Shown one piece after another: positions 3,047 to 53,415 of a DNA stretch of 64,000 bases; within the stretch, counting starts at the first letter, position 1, and the number at the start of each line of letters is the position of its first letter. Both the position numbers and the translations under genes were made by a program. The notes under the pieces were generated by a model. It searched no databases, was not told the DNA's origin, and saw nothing but the letters and a program-made list of their open reading frames with translations. Source of the stretch: Algorimicrobium echini (lineage in GTDB: Bacteria > Bacteroidota > Bacteroidia > Flavobacteriales > Flavobacteriaceae); NCBI RefSeq assembly GCF_900115185.1, contig NZ_FOVN01000004.1, forward strand, positions 69,501-133,500, read 5' to 3'.

Positions 3047-3745
3047 TTACGCCAATTCTAAAGCAATTGAAATCATGTCTTTAAACGTGGTTTCACGTTC
3101 CTGACTTGTGGTGCGCTCACCAGTAACTAACGAGTCGGAAATGGTTAAAATTGTCAAGGCATTTACGTTATGTTTAGCTGCTATAGTATACAATCCTGCG
3201 GTTTCCATTTCAACACAAAGCACACCAAACTTTGACCATTTTTTATAGGACTCAAAGTTATCGGCATAAAATTCATCAGATGTAAAAACGTTACCCGCTT
3301 TAAGAGGGATGTTTTTGTTTTTTGCAATGTCAACTGCTTTTTGAAATAAATTAAAATCGGCTGTAGGAGCATAATCTGCACCGCCAAAGCGTAATTCATT
3401 AACTCCAGAATTAGAAGATGCAGCCATAGCTAAAACGATGTCCCTAACTTTTACGTGTTTTTGATAGGAGCCAGCACTCCCAACACGGATTAAGTTTTTT
3501 ACGCCAAACTCATTAATAAGTTCATGGGCATAAATAGAAATGCTTGGAACACCCATTCCAGTACCCATTACTGATATGGGTTTTCCATTGAAAGTTCCAG
3601 TATATCCAAACATATTACGAACTTTATTGAAGCATTTAGGATTATCTAAAAAAGTTTCGGCAATCCATTTGGCGCGGAGGGGATCACCAGGTAACAAAAT
3701 AGTTTCTGCTATATCACCTTTTTTAGCTTCAATATGTACACTCAT
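3047..3745 (-). CDS. deoD: Purine nucleoside phosphorylase DeoD-type
   Basis: The 232-residue protein is a hexameric-type purine nucleoside phosphorylase: it splits purine (deoxy)nucleosides with phosphate into base and (deoxy)ribose-1-phosphate. Family motifs include [13 protein letters not shown] near the N terminus (phosphate and nucleoside binding), [28 protein letters not shown], and the late [16 protein letters not shown] and TISDSL motifs. Length fits the family. It starts seven bases after deoC, so the pair forms one deoxyribonucleoside salvage operon. Confidence 0.95.
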
Positions 3746-3752
3746 AATGTGG

Positions 3753-4418
3753 TTATTTTTTTTGTTCTTTTTTTGCTAATTCCTCCATGATAGAAACACC
3801 TGCCGATGCGCCTATTCTATCTACACCAGCTTCTATATATTTTCTAACGGTTTCCAAATTACGTATTCCTCCTGATGCTTTTATTTTTGCTCCATCTTTA
3901 ACCGTTTTTTTTATCATTTTAACAGCAGTCAATGTGGCACCACCTTTGGAGAAACCAGTGGAGGTTTTTATAAAATCGGCTTTAGCATCTAGGCAAATTT
4001 GACAGGCTTTAATGATTTCATTTTTAGAAAGCTCGCTAATTTCTAGAATAACTTTAAGGGTTTTAGCTCCAATAGCTACCTTTACATCTCGAATATCTGT
4101 GTAAACATTTACGTAATTTTTGCTTTTTAACATACCAATATTGATAACCATGTCAATTTCATCGGCACCATCTTCTAGGGCTTTCTGTGCTTCAAAAACT
4201 TTAGCTTCTGTGGTCATGGCTCCTAATGGAAAGCCTACAACAGCACATACTTTTACATTGGAATTTGTTAAAAGTTCTTTGGCTAAAGGCACATAAAATC
4301 CGTTGACACAAACGCTGTAAAAGCGATGTTCTTTGGCTTCATCACAAAGTGTTTTAATTTCTTTTTGGGTAGCACTTGGTTTAAGGAGCGTGTGGTCTAT
4401 GTAGTTATTAATATTCAT
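3753..4418 (-). CDS. deoC: Deoxyribose-phosphate aldolase
   Basis: The 221-residue protein is a class I aldolase that cleaves 2-deoxyribose-5-phosphate into glyceraldehyde-3-phosphate and acetaldehyde. It shows the DeoC sequence order: [57 protein letters not shown], the Schiff-base lysine region [24 protein letters not shown] and [13 protein letters not shown]. It is the first gene of the deoC-deoD unit and is preceded by an inverted repeat (4445-4478) that may be a control site. Confidence 0.95.
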
Positions 4419-4444
4419 AATGATAAAAAAATAGGTTAAGGTGC

Positions 4445-4478
4445 GGTAAAAATACGATTAACTGCGTATCTTTTTACC
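4445..4478. promoter_or_regulatory. Inverted repeat in the deoC upstream region
   Basis: GGTAAAAA (4445-4452) pairs with TTTTTACC (4471-4478), and the inner TACG (4453-4456) with CGTA (4465-4468), with a two-base bulge. The structure begins 27 bases upstream of the deoC ATG. On the minus strand its distal arm contains TATTTTTA, one mismatch from a TAnnTTTG -7 element, so the repeat could be an operator over the deoC promoter. Function is inferred. Confidence 0.35.
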
Positions 4479-4632
4479 TCAATCCCTAAAACTTTATTAA
4501 AATTTTAGGAGATTTTTAAATGAAACCAGCCCATTAACTTTTTTTATTAATTTATTATGTTGACTGATAGGTTTTTACAACAGGTCTTTTTCATCTATGA
4601 TTTTTATCAGTATTTAAAGGTTTTTTTGAATT

Positions 4633-4640
4633 TACTTTTG
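4633..4640 (+). promoter_or_regulatory. -7 promoter element of the OmpW-like gene
   Basis: TACTTTTG matches TAnnTTTG exactly and lies 26 bases before the ATG at 4666. No clean TTTG is visible at the -33 position, so only the -7 half is supported. Confidence 0.45.
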
Positions 4641-4665
4641 AAGTATAATTTAAAACTTATAAATC

Positions 4666-5286
4666 ATGAGAAAAATAATTTTTAGCGCATTATTACTGTT
4701 TGTAGTTGTATTTAATGCTCAAGGCCAGGACGAACAAACATCATCAGATGATTATAGTAAATGGCAAGCGCGTTTTCGAGTTATTGCCGTAGTTCCTCAA
4801 CCTGGAGATAATTTACCTGGTGCGGAAGTAGACATTTCTACAACCTTTGTTCCGGAGTTAGACTTTACCTATTTCTTTACTAAAAATATTGCTGCCGAAT
4901 TAATTTTAGCAACAACTAAACATGACGTTGAAGTAGAAAATGGTCCTGATTTAGGTTATGCGTGGTTATTGCCACCAACATTAAATTTACAGTATCATTT
5001 TTATTTAGGAGATTTTAAACCTTATTTAGGTGCTGGTATTAATTATACTATTTTTTATGGCATTGATGAAGGTGATGTTGTAGGAATGGACTATGATAAT
5101 ACGTTTGGATTCTCGTTTCAAGCAGGTGTAGATTATAGCTTTAATGATAAATGGTTTTTAAATTTAGACATTAAACAATTACTTATATCTACAGATGTAG
5201 AAGTAAACACAGGTGTGGGTGTTTTACCAGTTGAGGTAGATATTAATCCACTTGTAGTTGGTTTAGGTATTGGCAGAAAATTTTAA
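4666..5286 (+). CDS. OmpW-like outer membrane protein
   Basis: The 206-residue product has a Sec signal peptide (about residues 1-20, ending FNAQGQ) and a beta-barrel pattern of alternating aromatic strands. The OmpW features are present: WQARFRVIAVVPQ, then VDISTTFVPELDFTYFFTKNIAAELIL, LPPTLNLQYHFYLGDFKPYLGAGINYTIFY, and a C-terminal strand ending VVGLGIGRKF with the terminal aromatic expected for BAM insertion. OmpW proteins form small eight-stranded barrels that pass hydrophobic molecules. It stands alone, with its own -7 element and a terminator downstream. Confidence 0.85.
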   Translation: MRKIIFSALLLFVVVFNAQGQDEQTSSDDYSKWQARFRVIAVVPQPGDNLPGAEVDISTTFVPELDFTYFFTKNIAAELILATTKHDVEVENGPDLGYAWLLPPTLNLQYHFYLGDFKPYLGAGINYTIFYGIDEGDVVGMDYDNTFGFSFQAGVDYSFNDKWFLNLDIKQLLISTDVEVNTGVGVLPVEVDINPLVVGLGIGRKF

Positions 5287-5306
5287 ATAAACAAAATGGT
5301 AAGATG

Positions 5307-5334
5307 AAAAAAACCGCTTTAGTGCGGTTTTTTT
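5307..5334. terminator. Bidirectional terminator between the OmpW-like and STAS-like genes
   Basis: AAAAAACCGC (5307-5316) and GCGGTTTTTT (from 5324) form a perfect stem around a short TTTAGT loop, with an A run on one side and a T run on the other. It can stop transcription from both converging genes. Confidence 0.8.
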
Positions 5335-5337
5335 TAT

Positions 5338-5721
5338 TTATTTAGTTTCCTGTTTTATTATTTTATGAACCCATTGAATCGCTTCACTTAAGGTATCAAA
5401 AATCTCATAGGGTTTATCAAAAAAATTACGCTCGTATTCGGCGTTTTGTTTCATAATAGGAGTGTCCGGAATCATGGCAATGGCTACTAAATTTGGAATT
5501 TTTTCTGTTTCTACATAAGTCAGCGGATCAACTGAATAGGAGTTAATACGATTTGAAACATATACAATGTTTTTGCCGGTAAAATGCTTCTGTATAATTT
5601 CATTTAATTTTATGTTGTGCTCGGGATGAATTTCCATGCCTTCGCGTATTTGGCAAACCAAAAACTCGTCAAAGACAAAAAGTTCAGCACGAGGTAAACT
5701 GTAATAATGAAACATGCCCAT
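5338..5721 (-). CDS. STAS/SEC14-like (SpoIIAA-type) small cytoplasmic protein
   Basis: This is a 127-residue soluble protein with no signal peptide. The pattern of strands and helices (ELFVFDEFLVCQIREGM, KNIVYVSNRINSYSVDP, NLVAIAMIP, and a closing helix LSEAIQWVHKIIK) resembles the STAS-like proteins common in flavobacteria. I cannot point to a conserved phosphorylatable serine, so it need not be an anti-anti-sigma factor. An internal ATG two codons downstream is an alternative start. Function unknown. Confidence 0.6.
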   Translation of the reverse strand: MGMFHYYSLPRAELFVFDEFLVCQIREGMEIHPEHNIKLNEIIQKHFTGKNIVYVSNRINSYSVDPLTYVETEKIPNLVAIAMIPDTPIMKQNAEYERNFFDKPYEIFDTLSEAIQWVHKIIKQETK

Positions 5722-5872
5722 ATTGCGATAAATCTATTCAAGGTTAAAAATAGTTTTTTATTTATAAAACAGTTTATTGTTGTAGTGTTTTTTTCTGTTT
5801 TTTAATGCATTTTAAGCCATTCCAATTATTAAAACGTATATTGAAGCTGCTATTAATTAATACTTTATATTT

Positions 5873-7189
5873 ATGAAACATGTAAAAACCTATTACCTGC
5901 TTGCTATGCTATTTTTAAGTGTTAGCCTTCAAGCTCAAATTTCTGACACCGATTTTCCTGTAAATCAACTAATCGTTAATGAAGACCTTATGGTTAAGGG
6001 AAGTGGCTGCATCGGTATGGACTGTCCTGATGCGCCTTCTTTTGGCTTTCATACCATTCGTTTAATGGAAAATAATTTACGCATTGCTTTTGATGATACG
6101 AGTTCTTCTGGAACATTTCCCGCAAACGATTGGGAAATTACTATTAATGATACAGGAAATGGAGGTGCTAATTATTTTGGCGTAACGGATGTTACAGCCA
6201 ATACAAGTCCATTTAAAATTATGGCAGGTGCAGGAAATGATGCCTTATTTGTTAGCGGAACAGGAGGAAATGTTGGTTTAGGTACGAATGCTCCTCTTGT
6301 AGAACTGCATATAACAGATGGAGATTCTCCTGCTTTACGTTTGGAACAAAATGGTGCTTCTGGCTGGACATCGCAAACTTGGGATGTAGCAGGAAATGAA
6401 ACTAATTTCTTTATTAGAGATGTAACAGGAGGAAGTACTCTGCCATTCAAAATAAAACCTGGTGCACCGAATAATGTCATTTTTATTGCAGAAACAGGCG
6501 CATTGGGTGTTAACAATGCTGCACCAAACGGAAATGCTTCTTTAGATTTGGGTGCTACCAATAAAGGTTTAATATTGAATAGGTTAACAAACGCTGATAG
6601 AGCAACTTTATCAGGTGGTGCTGTGGCAGGTATGATGGTTTATGATACGGAAGATAATGCTACCTATACTTGGGATGGTTCTGCTTGGGTGCTACCAGGA
6701 AGTGATAGTCAAAACATGGCGTCAGCAACATTAAGTGGTACAACCTTAACGGTTGCCATTGAAAATGGTACATCTGTAGATGTTGATTTGGCTCCTTTGT
6801 TAACAAGTTTGCAAGCCGAAAATGTAGCGCAGCAAGCACAAATAGACGATTTGCTAGCTAGAATGACGGCTCTTGAAGATTGTGCCTGTGAAACCCTTCA
6901 GATTCCTGAAATAGAAACAGGTGAAATAGGTATTCAACTTGGGCAAAATGTCCCAAACCCCTTTAACACGCAATCTGAAATTTCCTATTTTATTCCTTCA
7001 AAATACCAAACAGCAAAAATTGTTTTAACTTCATCTTTAGGGCAAATTATCTCATCAGCTCCAATCACCCAATTTGGAAAATCTGGTACTATATCTATTC
7101 AAAAGGCACAGTTGCAATCTGCTATATATTATTACACACTATATGTAGATGGTAAAAAAATAGAAACGAAACGTTTGGTGGTTAAGTAA
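5873..7189 (+). CDS. Exported fibre-like protein with T9SS sorting domain
   Basis: The 438-residue protein starts with a signal peptide (residues 1-21, ending SLQAQ). The middle has two similar repeats of about 90 residues (each with NDW/WDVAG..., PFKI, then GNVGLGTNAP or GALGVNNAAP), like the head/neck repeats of tail-fibre and trimeric adhesin proteins. A coiled coil follows (LQAENVAQQAQIDDLLARM), then a T9SS type A sorting domain (LGQNVPNPFNTQSEISYFIP ... KRLVVK). It is therefore predicted to cross the outer membrane by T9SS and be displayed or released. The partner or substrate is unknown. Confidence 0.8.
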   Translation: MKHVKTYYLLAMLFLSVSLQAQISDTDFPVNQLIVNEDLMVKGSGCIGMDCPDAPSFGFHTIRLMENNLRIAFDDTSSSGTFPANDWEITINDTGNGGANYFGVTDVTANTSPFKIMAGAGNDALFVSGTGGNVGLGTNAPLVELHITDGDSPALRLEQNGASGWTSQTWDVAGNETNFFIRDVTGGSTLPFKIKPGAPNNVIFIAETGALGVNNAAPNGNASLDLGATNKGLILNRLTNADRATLSGGAVAGMMVYDTEDNATYTWDGSAWVLPGSDSQNMASATLSGTTLTVAIENGTSVDVDLAPLLTSLQAENVAQQAQIDDLLARMTALEDCACETLQIPEIETGEIGIQLGQNVPNPFNTQSEISYFIPSKYQTAKIVLTSSLGQIISSAPITQFGKSGTISIQKAQLQSAIYYYTLYVDGKKIETKRLVVK

Positions 7190-7203
7190 GAGTTTTACAA
7201 ACA

Positions 7204-7243
7204 AAAAAGCAACGTGCATCTATAAAGATTTACGTTGCTTTTT
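7204..7243. terminator. Terminator after the T9SS protein gene
   Basis: AAAAAGCAACGT (7204-7215) pairs with ACGTTGCTTTTT (7232-7243) around a 16-base loop. The T run lies on the plus strand, directly downstream of the stop at 7189. Confidence 0.75.
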
Positions 7244-7311
7244 CAAACTAACTAACCAACTTATTCATGAAAACGTTTTAGTTCAAGTTTTATTTTTGTT
7301 TTAACGAAACT

Positions 7312-9921
7312 TTAATATTCTTCCGAGACTAAATCGCCTTGATTCCTAAAGACTAATTTGTCATCAAAAGCATCTAATAAAATAATGCTGTCTGTTGAAA
7401 CGGTTCCAGATAATATTTCTTTACTTAATTCATTTAGAACTTCTTTCTGAATAACCCGTTTTACTGGTCTTGCGCCATATTCAGGGTTATATCCTTTTTT
7501 GGCTAGGTATTCTACAGCTTCTGGAGTTGCGTCAAACGTGATGCCTTGTTTTCCAATCATTTTAGTAATACCTTTTAGTTGTAACCCTACAATTTCAGTG
7601 ATGTTATCCTGTGTTAATGGCGTGAACATAATTGTATCATCAATACGGTTTAAAAATTCAGGTCTTACAGATTGTTTTAGCAAACCAAGAACCTCAATTT
7701 TTGCCATTTCCATTGCAGAGTCTACATCTTTGGTTGCTTCAAATTTATCTTGAATTATTTGGCTACCCATATTAGATGTCATAATAATGATGGTATTTTT
7801 AAAATCTGCCAAGCGACCTTTGTTGTCTGTTAAATGTCCTTCATCTAAAACCTGTAATAATATGTTAAAGGTATCTGGATGCGCTTTTTCAATTTCATCT
7901 AACAATACTACGGAATATGGTTTACGTCTTACGGCTTCCGTTAATTGGCCACCTTCATCGTAACCAACATATCCTGGAGGTGCACCAACCAATCGGCTAA
8001 CTGCATGTCGTTCTTGGTATTCGCTCATATCAATTCGGGTCATAGCTGCTTCATCATCAAATAAATACTCGGCCAATGCTTTTGCTAATTCCGTTTTGCC
8101 AACACCTGTTGTTCCTAAAAATAAGAACGTACCTATTGGTTTTTGTGGATTTTGTAAACCAGCACGAGAACGTCTTACGGCATCGCTAACAGCAACAATG
8201 GCTTCTTCTTGGCCTACAACACGTTTGTGTAATTCACTTTCTAATTTTAAAAGCTTTTCGCGTTCACTTTGCAGCATTTTAGTTACTGGAATTCCTGTCC
8301 ATTTAGCTACTACCTCGGCAACATCGTCATATGTTACTTCTTCTTTTATTAATGAGTTTTCACTCTGATTGGTCTGCAATTCCTTTTGAAGGGTTTCCAA
8401 ACGTTCTTGAGCTTCTTTTATTTTTCCATAACGAATTTCCGCTACTTTACCGTAGTCGCCATCGCGTTCTGCGCGTTCAGCTTCAAGCTTAAATTCCTCA
8501 ATATTTGATTTAGCGGTTTGAATATTATCAACCACGTCTTTTTCGCTTTTCCACTTCGCATTTAGCTCGTTGCGTTCTTCTTTTAAATTTGCTAAATCAG
8601 AACGCAGCGTTTTTAATTTTGTTTCATCTTTTTCACGCTTTATGGCTTCTATTTCAATTTCCAATTGCATGACTTTTCTATCCAATACATCTAGCTCTTC
8701 AGGTTTGGAATTGATTTCCATTCGTAATTTTGAAGCGGCCTCGTCCATAAGGTCAATAGCTTTGTCTGGTAAAAAGCGGTTAGTTATATAGCGTTCTGAT
8801 AACTCTACGGCTCCAATAATGGCTTCATCTTTTATACGAACTTTATGGTGTGTTTCGTACTTTTCTTTAATGCCACGTAAAATAGAAATGGCGCTTTCAG
8901 TATCTGGCTCATCAACCATGACTTTTTGAAAACGACGTTCTAATGCCTTGTCTTTCTCAAAGTATTTTTGATATTCATCCAAAGTTGTGGCTCCTATAGC
9001 GCGTAGTTCACCTCGAGCTAAAGCTGGTTTCAAGATATTGGCAGCATCCATAGCGCCTTGACCACCACCAGCACCAACAAGAGTATGGATTTCGTCGATA
9101 AAAAGTACAATATCGCCTTCGCTAGTAGTTACTTCTTTTATAACAGCTTTTAGGCGTTCTTCAAATTCACCTTTGTATTTAGCTCCAGCAATAAGAGCTC
9201 CCATATCTAAAGCAAAAATTTGCTTATCGACTAAATTTTCAGGAATATCACCATCTACAATTCTATGCGCTAAACCTTCTGCAATAGCGGTTTTTCCAGT
9301 TCCTGGTTCACCTACTAAAATTGGATTGTTTTTGGTTCTTCGGGATAAAATTTGAAGAATGCGTCGTATTTCTTCATCGCGACCAATAACGGGATCTAAT
9401 TTGCCATCTTTAGCTAATTGGTTTAAGTTTTTGGCGTATTTATTCAATGAGTTATAGGTTTCCTCTTGACTTTGAGATGTAACACGATCACCTTGGCGCA
9501 ATTCTTCAATAGCGGCTTTTAAATGGTTTTCAGTTACACCTTGATCTTTTAGCATTTGTGCAATTTTGCTAGTCGATTTAAAAATAGCTAAAATTAAATG
9601 TTCGATAGATACATAATCATCGGTCATTTTTTTTGCTATTATTGACGCTTCATTCAACGTTTTTCCAGCCTCACGAGATAACATAATCTCACCGCCAGAT
9701 ACTTTAGAAAAACTTTCTAATTGTTTATCTAAAGCTTGTTGTAATAAGGAAACGTTAACATTTAATTTTTTTAAAACAAATGGCAAAACGTTTTCATCGA
9801 TATTGAAAAGTGCTTTAAAAATATGTTCGTTTTCAATTTGTTGATGTCCAAAGCCTTGTGCTAGCTGCTGCGCTTGCTGTATGGCTTCTTGCGATTTTAT
9901 TGTAAAATTGTTTAAATTCAT
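7312..9921 (-). CDS. clpB: ClpB disaggregase
   Basis: The 869-residue protein is the AAA+ chaperone that threads and rescues aggregated proteins with DnaK. Domains in order: N-terminal Clp repeat domain (residues 1-145), NBD1 with Walker A GEPGTGKT (204-211), the M-domain coiled coil (about 405-530, rich in E/K/R), NBD2 with Walker A GTTGVGKT near residue 605, and the GYVGYDEGGQ pore loop. The C-terminal small domain includes YNPEYGARPVKR. Full length for the family. I see no CIRCE operator in the divergent region upstream. It stands alone. Confidence 0.97.
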   Translation of the reverse strand: MNLNNFTIKSQEAIQQAQQLAQGFGHQQIENEHIFKALFNIDENVLPFVLKKLNVNVSLLQQALDKQLESFSKVSGGEIMLSREAGKTLNEASIIAKKMTDDYVSIEHLILAIFKSTSKIAQMLKDQGVTENHLKAAIEELRQGDRVTSQSQEETYNSLNKYAKNLNQLAKDGKLDPVIGRDEEIRRILQILSRRTKNNPILVGEPGTGKTAIAEGLAHRIVDGDIPENLVDKQIFALDMGALIAGAKYKGEFEERLKAVIKEVTTSEGDIVLFIDEIHTLVGAGGGQGAMDAANILKPALARGELRAIGATTLDEYQKYFEKDKALERRFQKVMVDEPDTESAISILRGIKEKYETHHKVRIKDEAIIGAVELSERYITNRFLPDKAIDLMDEAASKLRMEINSKPEELDVLDRKVMQLEIEIEAIKREKDETKLKTLRSDLANLKEERNELNAKWKSEKDVVDNIQTAKSNIEEFKLEAERAERDGDYGKVAEIRYGKIKEAQERLETLQKELQTNQSENSLIKEEVTYDDVAEVVAKWTGIPVTKMLQSEREKLLKLESELHKRVVGQEEAIVAVSDAVRRSRAGLQNPQKPIGTFLFLGTTGVGKTELAKALAEYLFDDEAAMTRIDMSEYQERHAVSRLVGAPPGYVGYDEGGQLTEAVRRKPYSVVLLDEIEKAHPDTFNILLQVLDEGHLTDNKGRLADFKNTIIIMTSNMGSQIIQDKFEATKDVDSAMEMAKIEVLGLLKQSVRPEFLNRIDDTIMFTPLTQDNITEIVGLQLKGITKMIGKQGITFDATPEAVEYLAKKGYNPEYGARPVKRVIQKEVLNELSKEILSGTVSTDSIILLDAFDDKLVFRNQGDLVSEEY

Positions 9922-27893: not shown

Positions 27894-29897
27894 ATGAAAT
27901 ATGTATTTGTTCTTTTAGGTTTTTTATTCAGCAGTATTGTTTTTTCGCAACAAACAGATTTTGTGGATTTTAAACAGATTCAAGCACGCATTGTGCCAGA
28001 TGTTTCCACTAAAAGTGTTTCGGGAAATCTCACCATTATTTTTGATGTTTTAAAATCTACTGATTCTATTTTTTTAGATGCTCAAAACATCACATTTTCT
28101 AATGTGCTGTTGAATGGAAGCACAATTACCTATAAGAATGATGGAAAAAAGCTCATTTTATTTAATCTTTTTAAAGTTTCAAAAGAAAATATTGTAACGT
28201 TTCAATATACGGCTACACCAAAAAAAGCATTGTATTTTGTTGGTTGGGATAACGACGCTCCAAATCAAGTCTGGACACAAGGGCAAGGTAAATACACCAG
28301 TAATTGGTTGCCAAGTATAGATGATATGAATGATAAAATAGAATTTGATTTAACCGTTGAATTCGATTCAAACTTTAGCGTTATTTCAAATGGAAAACTA
28401 ATTGATAAGCAGATTAATGGTGCTAACACTATTTGGAGTTATAATATGAATCAACCAATGGCTAGTTATTTAGTGGCTTTAGCTATTGGAAAATATGATA
28501 AAAATGAAGACCTATCAGGAAGTGGCATTCCGTTAGAAATGTATTATTATCCTGAAGATTCTCTTAAGGTAGAACCAACCTACAGATATACCAAGCAAAT
28601 GTTTCATTTTTTAGAAACTGAAATTGGTGTTCCATATCCATGGCAAAATTATAAGCAAGTTCCTGTTCATGATTTTTTGTATTCCGGTATGGAAAATACA
28701 GGAACTACCATTTTTGCAGATTCGTTTGTCATAGATTCTATTGCGTTTAACGACAGAAATTATGTAAATGTTAATGCGCACGAATTAGCACATCAATGGT
28801 TTGGGAACTTGGTTACAGAAACCTCTGGAACACATCATTGGTTGCAAGAAGGTTTTGCTACGTATTATGCACTATTAGTTGAGCAGGATGTTTTTGGCGA
28901 GAATTATTACTATATGCGTTTGTATGAATACGCTCAAGAACTATTAGAGCAAGATAGTCGTAATGAAGGAACTTCTTTGTTGAATCCGAAATCCAGTAGC
29001 GCTACCTTTTATAAAAAAGGGGCTTGGGTTTTACACGCCTTACGCGAAAAAATAGGTAATGAGGCGTTTAAAACAGCCGTTAAAAACTATTTACAAATCT
29101 ATCAGTTTAAAAACGTAGAAACAACCAACTTTATTCAAGAAGTTGAAAAGGTAAGTGGTCAAAATCTAGATGCTTTTGTGGCTATTTGGTTGGAGGCAGA
29201 TACATTTCCATATAATGTAGCTATGGCAAGTTTGGAGCAATTGGAATATATGCAGGAATTTCTCATGGCGGATTGCGAAGCTAAAAACGCTAAATGCGAT
29301 TATTACCTAATTGCACCATTGTCTGCTGAAGCAAAAGCTAAAATTGTTGCTCAAGTACCAGAACTGATTTCAGGAGATGTTTTTAATGAGGGTTTAAAAG
29401 TGCGTCAAGCCATTGCTAAAAACCTTGTAAAAATTCCACTAACATTAAAGTCGAAATATGAATCGCTATTGACTGATAAATCTTACATTACGATAGAATC
29501 TGCGCTTTATAATTTATGGGTTAATTTTCCAGAGAACCGCGCAGACTATTTAAATAAGACAAAATCAATAGTTGGGTTGCCCGATAAAAATGTACGTTTG
29601 TTATGGTTGGTTTTGGCGCTTTCTACGCCAGATTATGAAGCCGAAAACAAAAAGCTTTTTTTTGATGAGTTAGTAGCATATACATCGGCAGATTATGGCT
29701 TCGAAGTACGTCAAGGTGCATTTTCGTATCTAAATGCTTTACAGGTATTTCCAGAAACCGCTATTGTAAACTTAATAGAGGCTACCAATCATCATAGTTG
29801 GCAATTTAAATCGTTTGCTAAAAATGTATTAAATCAGTTGTCAAACACAGAAGAATATGAGCTTATTATACAGCGATTAACTAAAAAAAATCAATAA
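27894..29897 (+). CDS. M1 family aminopeptidase, exported
   Basis: The 667-residue protein has a signal peptide (about residues 1-19, ending SIVFSQ) and an M1 gluzincin domain with all key residues: GMEN exopeptidase motif (265-268), zinc ligands H296 and H300 in HELAH, and E319 in WLQEGFATYY. A C-terminal helical repeat region follows. An in-frame ATG at 27801 would add 31 residues ahead of the signal peptide and overlap recG, so 27894 is chosen. It is followed after two bases by the first patatin gene, suggesting one operon. It would trim peptides in the periplasm or outside. Confidence 0.92.
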   Translation: MKYVFVLLGFLFSSIVFSQQTDFVDFKQIQARIVPDVSTKSVSGNLTIIFDVLKSTDSIFLDAQNITFSNVLLNGSTITYKNDGKKLILFNLFKVSKENIVTFQYTATPKKALYFVGWDNDAPNQVWTQGQGKYTSNWLPSIDDMNDKIEFDLTVEFDSNFSVISNGKLIDKQINGANTIWSYNMNQPMASYLVALAIGKYDKNEDLSGSGIPLEMYYYPEDSLKVEPTYRYTKQMFHFLETEIGVPYPWQNYKQVPVHDFLYSGMENTGTTIFADSFVIDSIAFNDRNYVNVNAHELAHQWFGNLVTETSGTHHWLQEGFATYYALLVEQDVFGENYYYMRLYEYAQELLEQDSRNEGTSLLNPKSSSATFYKKGAWVLHALREKIGNEAFKTAVKNYLQIYQFKNVETTNFIQEVEKVSGQNLDAFVAIWLEADTFPYNVAMASLEQLEYMQEFLMADCEAKNAKCDYYLIAPLSAEAKAKIVAQVPELISGDVFNEGLKVRQAIAKNLVKIPLTLKSKYESLLTDKSYITIESALYNLWVNFPENRADYLNKTKSIVGLPDKNVRLLWLVLALSTPDYEAENKKLFFDELVAYTSADYGFEVRQGAFSYLNALQVFPETAIVNLIEATNHHSWQFKSFAKNVLNQLSNTEEYELIIQRLTKKNQ

Positions 29898-49306: not shown

Positions 49307-52144
49307 TTAATACCATCTTCTGGTAAATAATCCTAACAAGGTTTTAAAATCTAAGGTGACAATAAATCTGATTTTCTCGGCATATTGCGGTTGAGCTATT
49401 TCCCATCCTAAATTTGAATAAACAGGAAAATAGAGTTCAAAATAATCTTCAATTAAACTCACGCGAACACCAGTATCGTAAACAAATTCGGCACCAGTGT
49501 CATGATTTTTTACCAAACCAACATCACCATAAGCCAAAATATATTTCCAAATAGTCATGCTGCCATTTAAAGTGGTTATCCATTGGTTTGCAAAACTTGG
49601 TTGTAATTGCGACTTAAAACCGCCTTCAGCTATAATAAGTTGCTGACTAAATAATCCATCACTTTCCGAGCGTCCATAGTAATTGTAATCGAATAAATAA
49701 TCGGTTGGTCTATCTAGAGCAAAGCTAAAATAATCAGAATCCCTAAACGTTTTATTGTACAGAAAAACACCTGCAAAAAAACGTAAATTATACTGCCTAT
49801 TATTTTTGGTTAGCTTTCTGTACTCATAGTTTAAGGCGACCTTTCCAAATTTTTCAGAAAACTGCGTGTCTGCAAACCAAGAGGAATAATTTACCAAATC
49901 TTTGTCTATATGATTATAACGTAAATTAAGAACGCCATAGTTTGGTTGGTTGGTTTCGGAAGTTAATAAAGCAGAAGGATCTGAATCTCTATTAATATCT
50001 ACATAACGTAAGTTTAAGTAATGACGTTTGTTAGAGCGTAAATTATTTTTATCTCTAAACGAAAGCTGAACAGCAGGTGTGAATTTTCTGACAAACAAAT
50101 CCTCTGCATAACTAGAATAGCTTGCACCTACACCATAATTAATATTGAATAATGGTGAGGAATCATCAATATACTGAATGTAATTTAATGTTACAGATCC
50201 TGTAAGTGATTGTGATTTTAAACCATATTGTGGTGCTATTTTGTAATAAAAAGGTTTTCGTAACACGGTTTTATTGTAAGCTTTAACACCTAAAACAATA
50301 CCATCATAAATATTATTAAACTCCACAATTGGCATTAGGAAAATCTGATTGTAATCAGGATCTTCAATATCTTTTATTAATCTAATTTGTAAGGGTCTGT
50401 TAAAAAGAGCTTTGGTAAGTGTCTTGGTGTTATTCCGGACATTAAATTCAGGCACAATTTGATCGTGATTTAATACGACCTTGGTTGTTTGGGTATCGGG
50501 AATTGTAACGGTTAGGGAATCCTTAATACTATTTAACCAAATTTTAGACGTGACCGTTTTATCGGTAAATGAAAACAAGGAAATAGGGACACTTATATCA
50601 CTATTATTTTTAATGGTTACATGTATGGAATCGTTTTCGCGAATGGCTTTAGAAATGGTGTAATCAATATATTTTTTGGTGTGAATATAATCGGTAAAAA
50701 ACCACTCTAAATCTTTGTCAGTTTTTGATTTTACAAAGCGTTCAAAACGTTCGGTATTGACTTCTTTATGTCTATTTGTAATTAGAAATTCGGTGAGTAT
50801 AGAATCAACCAGTTGATTTCCCAAATAATCATTCATGTATTTTAAACCTACACCAGCCTTGTATTTGTTAGCTATATTTTCATTAAATTTTATTAATGAA
50901 TCCTTCGGCATGGTTAGTGGTTGGTCTATATTTTGGCGCGCCATGTGCATGTACAGAAAACTATATTGAGCATTGAAATCTAATTGCATAGCATGAAAAG
51001 ATTTAATACCCCAGATATTGGAAAGTGTTCCAGCTAATTTCATGTCTGGATAATTTTCATCTACATATTTCATTAAATAGTAGGTTTGAATTCCATCCAT
51101 TAACCATTGGTCCGTTCGCGGATTAATTAATAATATATTCTCTAAATAATTGCGAAGTCCTGTTTTTAAAATTTTCAATTCATACTGAAAGTGATCGGGA
51201 AACGGTCTGATAAAACTTGGTAATAAATTCAAACCGTAAATAGGGCTTTTTCTGTAATCAATATCTGATATTAATAAGCGTTCATGCGGATAGTCTCCTA
51301 AATTGTCGGTTAAAAATTGTACTATTTTGTCTGTTACCAAAGCCTTGTTCATGGCATTTAAATTCTCATCATCTACATTGGAGATTAATGTAAAGTTATC
51401 GGTTTCAATTTCTCGATATAGGGATAATTTATTTAGAAACAATTTGGAGTTCAAGCGGTTTTTACCTGAAAAAACAACTGTTTGATTGTCTTTAACGTGG
51501 TAATAATCAATTTTATCTAATTCAGATTCTATATAATAATTTAAAGGACAAGTAATTTCTAGCCGAATATCTGATTCAGGTACAAACATATCATCCAAAT
51601 CCTTATGGCTACTATATTGCCATTCGCCATTGTATACAGCAGGTGTTGCATACCAATACCGAAGGTTGTAGTCTCCATATGTGCTCACGCCATATCTTGT
51701 AAACTTATCGTTAGGAACTTGTACAATATAATTTAAATGGATGGTATAAGAGTTCTTTGGTAGTAAAGGAGTTTCTAATTCAACTTTAACAACATCAATA
51801 TGATCTTTAACACGGTCAAACTCTAATTCTACTTCGTTTTGGTGAATGGAAGTAATTACGGAATAGCCACGATCTTCATTTTTTGCAAAGTGAAATTCTG
51901 TTTTAAATTCTTCTGAAAAACGCTTGGCCAGCGGTGTGTTTTTGGTAGCAAAACTATTACTCCAATCATTTAAATAAATACTTTGAAGTGTATCGTTCGT
52001 TTTATTAAAATAGGTAATGGTTTGAGAAATTCGGATCTGATTTTTAGTCACATCAAAGGTTGCTTTAACATCCATGGTATTTTGTCCAAATACTACAATG
52101 CCAAAAAATAAAAAGATGCTACTAAATAGATTTTTAATGCTCAA
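49307..52144 (-). CDS. Pseudo-M1 peptidase fused to an outer-membrane beta-barrel
   Basis: The 945-residue protein has a signal peptide (about residues 1-20), an M1-like beta sandwich and gluzincin-like region (to about 490), Ig-like strands (about 490-560) and a C-terminal barrel (about 600-945) of alternating aromatic strands ending FTRRWY. Where an active M1 enzyme has HExxH and WLNEGxxTYY, this one reads RNYLE (331-335) and WLMDGIQTYY, so the zinc ligands are lost. It keeps the fold but is probably not a peptidase. The start is TTG at 52144, in a TTGA overlap with the upstream stop. Confidence 0.8.
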   Translation of the reverse strand: MSIKNLFSSIFLFFGIVVFGQNTMDVKATFDVTKNQIRISQTITYFNKTNDTLQSIYLNDWSNSFATKNTPLAKRFSEEFKTEFHFAKNEDRGYSVITSIHQNEVELEFDRVKDHIDVVKVELETPLLPKNSYTIHLNYIVQVPNDKFTRYGVSTYGDYNLRYWYATPAVYNGEWQYSSHKDLDDMFVPESDIRLEITCPLNYYIESELDKIDYYHVKDNQTVVFSGKNRLNSKLFLNKLSLYREIETDNFTLISNVDDENLNAMNKALVTDKIVQFLTDNLGDYPHERLLISDIDYRKSPIYGLNLLPSFIRPFPDHFQYELKILKTGLRNYLENILLINPRTDQWLMDGIQTYYLMKYVDENYPDMKLAGTLSNIWGIKSFHAMQLDFNAQYSFLYMHMARQNIDQPLTMPKDSLIKFNENIANKYKAGVGLKYMNDYLGNQLVDSILTEFLITNRHKEVNTERFERFVKSKTDKDLEWFFTDYIHTKKYIDYTISKAIRENDSIHVTIKNNSDISVPISLFSFTDKTVTSKIWLNSIKDSLTVTIPDTQTTKVVLNHDQIVPEFNVRNNTKTLTKALFNRPLQIRLIKDIEDPDYNQIFLMPIVEFNNIYDGIVLGVKAYNKTVLRKPFYYKIAPQYGLKSQSLTGSVTLNYIQYIDDSSPLFNINYGVGASYSSYAEDLFVRKFTPAVQLSFRDKNNLRSNKRHYLNLRYVDINRDSDPSALLTSETNQPNYGVLNLRYNHIDKDLVNYSSWFADTQFSEKFGKVALNYEYRKLTKNNRQYNLRFFAGVFLYNKTFRDSDYFSFALDRPTDYLFDYNYYGRSESDGLFSQQLIIAEGGFKSQLQPSFANQWITTLNGSMTIWKYILAYGDVGLVKNHDTGAEFVYDTGVRVSLIEDYFELYFPVYSNLGWEIAQPQYAEKIRFIVTLDFKTLLGLFTRRWY

Positions 52145-53415
52145 TGTGTTTTAATAAACTTTAAAGGTTCAACCTGTGTGTTGCTGGCTACAATATAATA
52201 GATGCCAGCTGATAAATTTGTTAAGGATACGTTATAAGTATACGCAGTTTGAACAGGAATGGTTTTTACTTGTTGTCCTAGTGTGTTGTATATTTTTAGG
52301 ATATCTGTGTCATGAAAAAGCTTATTTACTTTTAGTGTTAAACTATTTTGAATGTAATTTGAACCCACTATTTCAATAGATTTTGATAGTGTTGTTGAAA
52401 ACTCTGGAATGGATAATGAGGCATTTGTTGAAATTTGTAAGGTTACCGGTAAGTGGTCGCTAAAATAATGAAGTGCCTCACGGATATTAAATGAAAACTT
52501 AATACCAGCACATTCAGAATCGATTATGGATTGATTAAAACAATCAGTATTACCATTGTTTCCATAAACCTGATAGGAATTAGGTTCATAATACAGGTCT
52601 GTATTGGAAAGCATGTTTTCTGATGTCATGATAAAATCAAAACGGTCATCAAAACCACCAGTTGTGCCACCAAAACCAGTTTGTGTTCGGGTAGATTGTG
52701 TAAATACATCCACAAAGTTAGTATTGTTATGCCAGCTGCCAATTTTGTTAGCAGGATCTGTAAATGTAATTGTATTGGTAGGGTTTATCAATTCCTGAAA
52801 AGCAGGTTCCGAACTGGTATACACATTAAAATCGCCTGCAAGCAGCACATTGCTATTTGCAGGCAACGTGCTTAAATAACTTGTTAAGTCGTTTACCATT
52901 TGTAAGCGGTAAGCCTGATTTTCGGTGCCACTAGAGGCTTTTAAATGACAGACAATAGCATTTAAATAAATAGGATTACTAGCTTGATTTACTGTGTTTA
53001 ATTTTAAGCGATAATGGTTGAAATCTCTAAAGATAGTAGGTACAATTGTCTGACTTTCTAATATGAATTTAGAACTGTTAAAATATATCAAATTCTGCAA
53101 ATCGTTCTGATTTCCTATGGTATCATCCGAAGTGTTTAGCTGAAAGGTTGCCATTTCAAAATTGCTATTTACCCGATCTTGAATCATCTGCAAAATGCTA
53201 TTAGCACCAAAGGCATTATTGAGTTCGCAAACCATGAAAATGTCTGGTTGGTAATCGTTTAAAATAACCTCTAAATATGCTAAACGATTGGGTACAGCGT
53301 TTTCCAAAGGAAAGTTTAGTACGTTATAAAACATCACATTAAAGGATGTTTGTGCACGTATTCCTGTAAAATTTAAGATGCCCAAAAGCATCAAAAACAG
53401 CCAATTCTTTTTCAT
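52141..53415 (-). CDS. Exonuclease/endonuclease/phosphatase-family protein with T9SS sorting domain
   Basis: The 424-residue protein has a signal peptide (about residues 1-21, ending GIRAQ), an EEP fold (NVMFYNVLNF, IFMVCELNN, VLLAGDFNVYTSSEPAFQELI, SDHLPVTLQI, with the conserved Asn, Glu, Asp and His of the catalytic set) and a C-terminal T9SS type A sorting domain (LKVNKLFHDTDILKIYNTLGQQVKTIP...YYIVASNTQVEPLKFIKTH). It is therefore predicted to be exported; a nuclease or phosphodiesterase role is likely but unproven. It overlaps the pseudo-M1 gene. Confidence 0.85.
   Translation of the reverse strand: MKKNWLFLMLLGILNFTGIRAQTSFNVMFYNVLNFPLENAVPNRLAYLEVILNDYQPDIFMVCELNNAFGANSILQMIQDRVNSNFEMATFQLNTSDDTIGNQNDLQNLIYFNSSKFILESQTIVPTIFRDFNHYRLKLNTVNQASNPIYLNAIVCHLKASSGTENQAYRLQMVNDLTSYLSTLPANSNVLLAGDFNVYTSSEPAFQELINPTNTITFTDPANKIGSWHNNTNFVDVFTQSTRTQTGFGGTTGGFDDRFDFIMTSENMLSNTDLYYEPNSYQVYGNNGNTDCFNQSIIDSECAGIKFSFNIREALHYFSDHLPVTLQISTNASLSIPEFSTTLSKSIEIVGSNYIQNSLTLKVNKLFHDTDILKIYNTLGQQVKTIPVQTAYTYNVSLTNLSAGIYYIVASNTQVEPLKFIKTH

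Follow-up and report, generated by a model that had tools for sequence, protein, structure and literature searches.

The closest described systems are Omp85 proteins that carry a domain of their own in front of the barrel. As described in the survey of Heinz and Lithgow (2014; PMC4104836), the superfamily divides into ten subfamilies, among them the patatin, WD40, and PF00149 "Metallo" types, and POTRA domains are lacking in some; no M1 type is named in its account of the ten, and its main text contains no word beginning with "peptidase". The patatin-Omp85 protein PlpD is described as a lipolytic enzyme in which an N-terminal enzyme fold precedes the Omp85 barrel and lies in the periplasm; it differs from the protein considered here in having a patatin rather than an M1 domain and in its POTRA. 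The "Metallo" and WD40 subfamilies likewise place a non-POTRA domain before the barrel, which in their descriptions is PF00149 or a beta-propeller. Recent reports portray the outer-membrane machinery of Bacteroidota as strongly unlike that of E. coli (PMC12611786, PMC12578637). The BAM complex of F. johnsoniae, a member of the same family as our organism, also serves outer-membrane assembly, but none of its six subunits (BamA, D, G, H, M, and P) is described as an M1-barrel protein, and it is these descriptions that set them apart.

Here we consider a protein of Algorimicrobium echini in which an M1 domain without its zinc site is fused to an outer-membrane barrel. This combination, already proposed in the initial annotation, is borne out by structural models and alignments and is kept across the family. 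The architecture of M1 fold plus barrel is well supported by the predicted models; the function we infer. BamM was dropped as a candidate on its description as a lipoprotein with a PPI fold and calcium ions, and the F. psychrophilum elastase FP0506 on its description as a surface lipoprotein. Among the open-licence literature matches listed (titles and starts of abstracts, with preprints outside the scope), none describes an M1-barrel protein.

The gene and its M1 fold

The window, by which we mean the whole stretch of 64,000 nucleotides that was analyzed, contains the gene at 49307-52144 on the minus strand as one open frame of 945 aa; all coordinates given for its parts are on this strand. 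The plus strand across the same positions carries stops throughout. Translation starts at a TTG that shares bases with the TGA stop of the gene upstream (TTGA), and the equivalent place is also TTG in all three relatives inspected (L099, L100, and L101). Residues 1-21 (52082-52144) form, by eye, a putative signal peptide without a lipobox Cys. Open frames and Pfam identify the upstream neighbor (52141-53415, minus strand) as a separate gene for an endonuclease/exonuclease/phosphatase-like protein, which has a sub-threshold type IX sorting tail.

An AlphaFold2 model of the full-length protein (59 sequences; mean pLDDT 77.4, pTM 0.71) gives the domain order as a beta saddle at residues 22-255 (51380-52081), a helical domain at 264-486 (50687-51355), a small beta domain at 495-558 (50471-50662), and a barrel from residue 599. 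With VIA-align, residues 20-582 superpose on M1 peptidases, best on engineered tricorn F3 (3q7j; Z 25.5 over 432 residues, rmsd 3.2), and in the predicted model residues ~20-560 have the M1 fold, with the saddle and the helical (catalytic) domain both recognized. The initial annotation was therefore right that the M1-like part keeps its fold. We call the small domain, whose strands come from the model, Ig-like by eye and partly on what we take to be the usual M1 anatomy. The M1 (gluzincin) aminopeptidases tricorn F3, IRAP/ERAP1, LTA4 hydrolase, and Deinococcus M1 share the saddle and helical fold (Z 22.9-25.5 among the matches listed), but the window protein differs from them in that the zinc ligands, the catalytic Glu, and GAMEN are all replaced and in having a C-terminal barrel.

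Pfam Peptidase_M1 (PF01433) matches the protein at 14.8 bits, below its 27.7 cut-off; the scores are 40.4-68.2 in the nine active proteins scanned and 16.5 in a dead protein of family f2. Neither a protein query nor a profile query found a match among PDB sequences, and the protein found none in NCBIfam. In Foldseek the best 50 matches listed for the full chain are exclusively M1 entries, and the barrel was for this reason modeled by itself. A second M1 peptidase lies in the window at 28587-29189 (plus strand); its 698-aa open frame has HELAH intact and is the strongest Pfam M1 match of the genome.

Loss of the zinc site

In the alignment, HEVGHNWFYGILGSNERxxxWMDEG of active relatives faces KTGLRNYLENILLINPRTDQWLMDG (with one shift of start), so that their HEVGHNW stands opposite K327-T-G-L-R331-N-Y. 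The column of the first His holds K327, that of the catalytic Glu T328, and that of the second His R331 (KTGLR, residues 327-331; 51152-51166), while the third ligand, the Glu of WMDEG, corresponds to D350 of WLMDG (residues 347-351; 51092-51106); neither HExxH nor the downstream Glu is present. At the position of the GAMEN loop (residues 301-311, PIYGLNLLPSF; 51212-51244), YGLNLLP replaces the GGM-EYP of the active relatives. The initial annotation had HExxH replaced by RNYLE. The loss stands, but its register was four residues off, as RNYLE starts at residue 331, the second His, and the true counterpart is KTGLR. The WLMDG that it read in place of the downstream WLNEG motif starts at residue 347.

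Conservation was read mainly from a 74-row alignment made up of the window protein, 56 family sequences (L002-L057), and 17 of the 80 named loci; two others, A2 and A3, take in 58 and 79 of the named loci, with the partial L150 left out of A3. HExxH is missing in all 57 fetched sequences of the family (f1), in 4/4 of f2, and in all 58 named relatives in A2, which have K at 327. Six other M1 open frames found in the same genome by the Pfam M1 search all have HExxH intact, which makes the loss here more than chance. Among the positions listed, those invariant in 74/74 rows are P309, K327, and R343 in the M1 part and D815, F818, R825, Q834, G842, F843, and K844 further on. W347 is found in 73/74 rows, D350 is D in 70 and E in 4, N332 is retained in 54/74, and near the GAMEN position Y303 and G304 each reach 73/74. 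Residue 331 is N in 27 rows, H in 19, R in 10, K in 6, and Y in 4, and residue 349 is variable in a 59-row alignment, so RNYLE and WLMDG are not conserved letter for letter as had been envisaged. Judged from the alignment, the His at 331 (19/74), N332, W347, and D/E350 are remnants of an active site. In family f55 the zinc site has decayed otherwise: in L222, for example, both His are gone while the catalytic Glu persists together with the third Glu.

Across the 74 rows, mean conservation is 0.57 in the saddle, 0.66 in the helical domain, 0.61 in the small beta domain, and 0.72 in the old cleft (residues 296-356), which indicates that the dead cleft has not been left to drift. K327 and D350, at two zinc-ligand positions, probably pair; either something binds in the old cleft, or this pair may serve to hold the fold. 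A different metal site or other chemistry in the same cleft would also fit a region more conserved than the remaining M1 part, in which E322, D350, and D407 are nearly invariant; moreover, H287 and H384 are each kept at 90% when the narrower alignment of 59 rows is used, and residues 369-407 are unreliably modeled (pLDDT about 30). The initial annotation had named a metal site left intact through other residues as a point against its reading. Between residues 264 and 486, no His or Cys is retained in 93% of the 74 rows, E322, D350, and D407 being the only candidate ligands kept at that level. As the first ligand is also an invariant Lys and GAMEN is gone, we consider it very unlikely that the protein is still an enzyme.

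The barrel and its side of the membrane

The C-terminal third had been read as a beta-barrel, and two AlphaFold2 models predict one, with strands in residues 599-930; residues 600-945, on which that reading depended, do contain a predicted barrel. In the barrel-only model (80 sequences; pLDDT 72.3, pTM 0.69), residues 599-933 (49346-50350) form sixteen strands, counting a short last strand and a broken third strand, with a gap of 55 residues between strands 11 and 12. The long loop in this gap (residues 798-854; 49583-49753) contains DYLFDYNYYGRSES...EGGFKS and is modeled mostly at pLDDT under 50-60, and mostly under 50 in the barrel-only model. Sixteen strands and a long strand 11-12 loop are features of Omp85, here found in a predicted model only, and the loop would correspond to L6 as in Omp85 proteins. 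The active relatives carry a similar block in the alignment. The RGF/RGY motif of L6 is absent from the loop, as is any POTRA domain from the model, where the M1 fold and small beta domain occupy the N-terminus.

Structure comparisons point to the same superfamily. With the barrel alone, the best 50 of 510 Foldseek matches (E <= 10) are all Sam50, TamA, BamA, or CdiB (best E 7.6e-7), and the matches listed have TM-scores of 0.34-0.48 and rmsd of 7.6-13.6. The first 35 VIA-align matches belong to the Omp85 superfamily (Z 16.4 to 13.8), among them 7xzi chain 7, which we take to be Toc75; BtuB (Z 13.7) and other barrels come next at <= 13.7, so the margin is small. The F. johnsoniae BamA barrel (9n2d, 9n2e) is among the structure matches of both programs. 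In hhalign comparisons with 29 Omp85 sequences, 26 active barrels gave E 1.3e-4 (prob 54), 84 dead barrels E 0.021 (prob 2), and dead and active barrels together E 0.0027 (prob 11; reversed control 0.43); on these profiles the dead-only and combined probabilities are well below the usual trust level. Pfam Omp85 (PF01103) has no match in the window protein and matches one of 20 barrels from other family members, at E 0.01. We regard the kinship to Omp85 as moderately supported by the model; given the weak-to-modest sequence support and the absence of RGF/RGY and POTRA, we use the term Omp85-like for the barrel and refrain from placing the protein in Omp85 itself.

Sequence conservation bears on what the barrel does. 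The loop at 798-854 has a mean of 0.80, the highest of the stretches compared, and 44% of its residues are conserved at >= 95%; the linker (residues 559-598) reaches 0.75, the last strands 0.74, and the barrel as a whole 0.67. Were the barrel an inert anchor without insertion or transport, with the dead M1 domain acting as a scaffold for envelope proteins such as peptidoglycan, lipoprotein, or inner-membrane partners, it would be odd for the loop, linker, and last strands to be the most conserved parts. The absence of RGF/RGY and the weak Omp85 profile match would suit such an adaptor. There is also a precedent for an M1 fold as a scaffold in the aminopeptidase-homology domain of Taf2, which is inactive. 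In the account of TFIID this domain contacts partners and DNA (PMC6220335), but Taf2 is eukaryotic and nuclear and has no barrel. A purely structural adaptor is possible, if unlikely.

The gaps of the barrel model speak to orientation. Those after odd strands are 3, 4, 2, 16, 2, 55, 5, and 15 residues long and those after even strands 8, 7, 8, 3, 5, 2, and 3, so that the long gaps (16, 55, and 15) all lie opposite the N-terminus; the strand number is even. Long barrel loops are normally outside, and the M1 part should accordingly face the periplasm. From the model, its most likely position is periplasmic, where other Omp85 proteins carry POTRA. This runs counter to the initial annotation, in which the dead peptidase was displayed from the outer membrane. 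In a type Vd-like arrangement the barrel would carry its own M1 domain outside as a receptor or adhesin, much as PlpD was first described (PMC4104836), and peptidase activity at the surface would be a sensible role for the active relatives. Besides the predicted topology, two observations oppose this: later work places the PlpD domain in the periplasm, where it is described as remaining (PMC11116518), and the 74 rows show strong conservation of the old cleft, unlike typical variable surface parts. Surface display is thus quite improbable.

Distribution, history, and proposed role

Of the 199 sampled genomes of family f1, which we take to be Flavobacteriaceae because Bizionia, Hanstruepera, Algibacter, and Winogradskyella are among the named relatives, 193 have a match at least as strong as E 1.1e-77. 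The tally rises to 198/199 if weak matches in G016 (3e-4), G023 (8.5e-7), G081, G089, and G136 are included; G055 has none. Among the six genomes without a strong match, completeness reaches 90% only in G016 (91%) and G023 (99%). The figure of 193/199 counts strong matches, the motif itself having been read in the 57 family sequences and the named relatives. A phylum tally of 173/296 was set aside, since it mixes the M1-barrel protein with other M1 peptidases. One family copy (G041:C56:6713-9499) has one in-frame TGA. In f2 genomes several short M1 matches span one or two TAA codons (e.g., G290:C1:3293304-3293855); these may simply run beyond the gene end.

Outside the family, an order-wide search found some match in 83/118 genomes, and 31 further loci were examined. 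Dead forms were seen in f1, f2, f51, f52, f55, and f60 and in one f63 genome, G522, and active M1-barrel forms (HEVGH) in f54, f59, and f62; none of nine reduced genomes of 0.3-0.6 Mb listed (f64) has a match. The G522 copy falls inside f1 in the tree, which makes its origin doubtful, and it may reflect contamination or transfer. All M1 proteins of 36 other loci (L063-L098) have HExxH; plain M1 peptidases are among them, and two of those belong to f1 genomes. One of these loci, L072, has two neighboring active M1 frames (3306-4583 and 4633-7533), the first shorter. Active M1-barrel relatives from families elsewhere in the order and class (such as L064, L066, L227, and L233) appear alike in length, M1 domain, and an alignable barrel that includes the strand 11-12 block; they differ in keeping HExxH...E and GGM-EYP, and are about 900-1030 aa long. 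The barrel of L077 is similar to that of the window protein (hhalign, E 8e-11); hhalign found no such similarity in the more distant full-length M1 proteins L079-L086, L097, and L098.

In a tree of 61 chosen proteins, all 35 dead forms lie on one side of a branch and the 26 active forms on the other (SH-aLRT 100). In a tree that includes plain M1 peptidases, the dead forms, picked for spread, group together (15/15), and next to them stand 14 M1-barrel proteins of the class that are active. The active M1-barrel set used for hhalign and the 61-protein tree takes in L075, L076, and L095, which come from outside the class. Both trees are quick ones, with SH-aLRT without bootstrap, a midpoint root, and many rows that differ in letter composition. 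Since the dead forms make one clade, one loss suffices, and on these trees the zinc site was apparently lost once. The zinc site is ancestral in M1, and with a midpoint root the direction of change rests on this. The f55 genome G548 has two M1-barrel proteins, one dead and one active (L228 and L229). Its active copy groups with f5 (support 94), and transfer would fit.

Gene order around the locus has been kept, yet it reveals little of what the protein does. Among the 80 named loci, some of which are cut by contig ends, a LOG-like gene (79/80), uvrA (78/80), and the exonuclease-phosphatase (25/80) lie upstream and a 2-oxo acid dehydrogenase (75/80) downstream; the window's neighbors were not recognized in 40 loci (L059-L098: f2, active, and plain M1) with flanks of <= about 4 kb, some much shorter. 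Neither the sequence nor these neighbors directly suggest lipid- or LPS-related maintenance of the outer membrane through the barrel, with M1 as a lipid-binding or sensing part. Such a role would have parallels in the lipolytic domain of PlpD (PMC4104836), in TamA, which may join in lipid trafficking (PMC11116518), and in leukotriene A4 hydrolase, an M1 member among the structure entries matched that was solved with a lipid substrate; we consider it improbable.

The evidence on function is indirect and lies in the kind of barrel, the conservation of loop and cleft, and the near-universal retention of the protein. Most likely the protein serves in assembly, export, or scaffolding at the outer membrane, its M1 domain binding without catalysis. 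Of the receptor or assembly factor that the initial annotation had suggested, the assembly factor is compatible with the Omp85-like barrel found by Foldseek and VIA-align. As the best explanation overall we tentatively favor an outer-membrane pseudoenzyme with an assembly or scaffold role, in which the dead cleft has turned into a binding site; the uvrA, LOG-like, and 2-oxo acid dehydrogenase neighbors count against it in that they do not indicate outer-membrane assembly. Such a protein would sit in the outer membrane by its C-terminal 16-strand, BamA/TamA/Sam50-like barrel, with the M1 fold and small beta domain in front of it in the periplasm, at the POTRA position of other Omp85 proteins. 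Its ancestor would have been a membrane-tethered zinc peptidase that lost the zinc site on the branch to Flavobacteriaceae and several neighbor families, after which the protein would have been kept in nearly all genomes. The old cleft may bind a polypeptide or partner protein without cutting it and feed or position it at the barrel.

Taken further, and possible if somewhat doubtful, this would be a further Omp85-like kind in Bacteroidota, in which M1 replaces POTRA and the peptidase died once in the order, leaving a client-binding assembly or export factor beside BAM and TamL that is now near-universal and possibly essential. Dead and active forms that share their domains, one loss that suffices, and a genome, G548, that has both make a clean case of pseudoenzyme evolution. 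A near-universal protein with an Omp85-like barrel in the family of F. johnsoniae is a candidate for a missing piece of its outer-membrane machinery.
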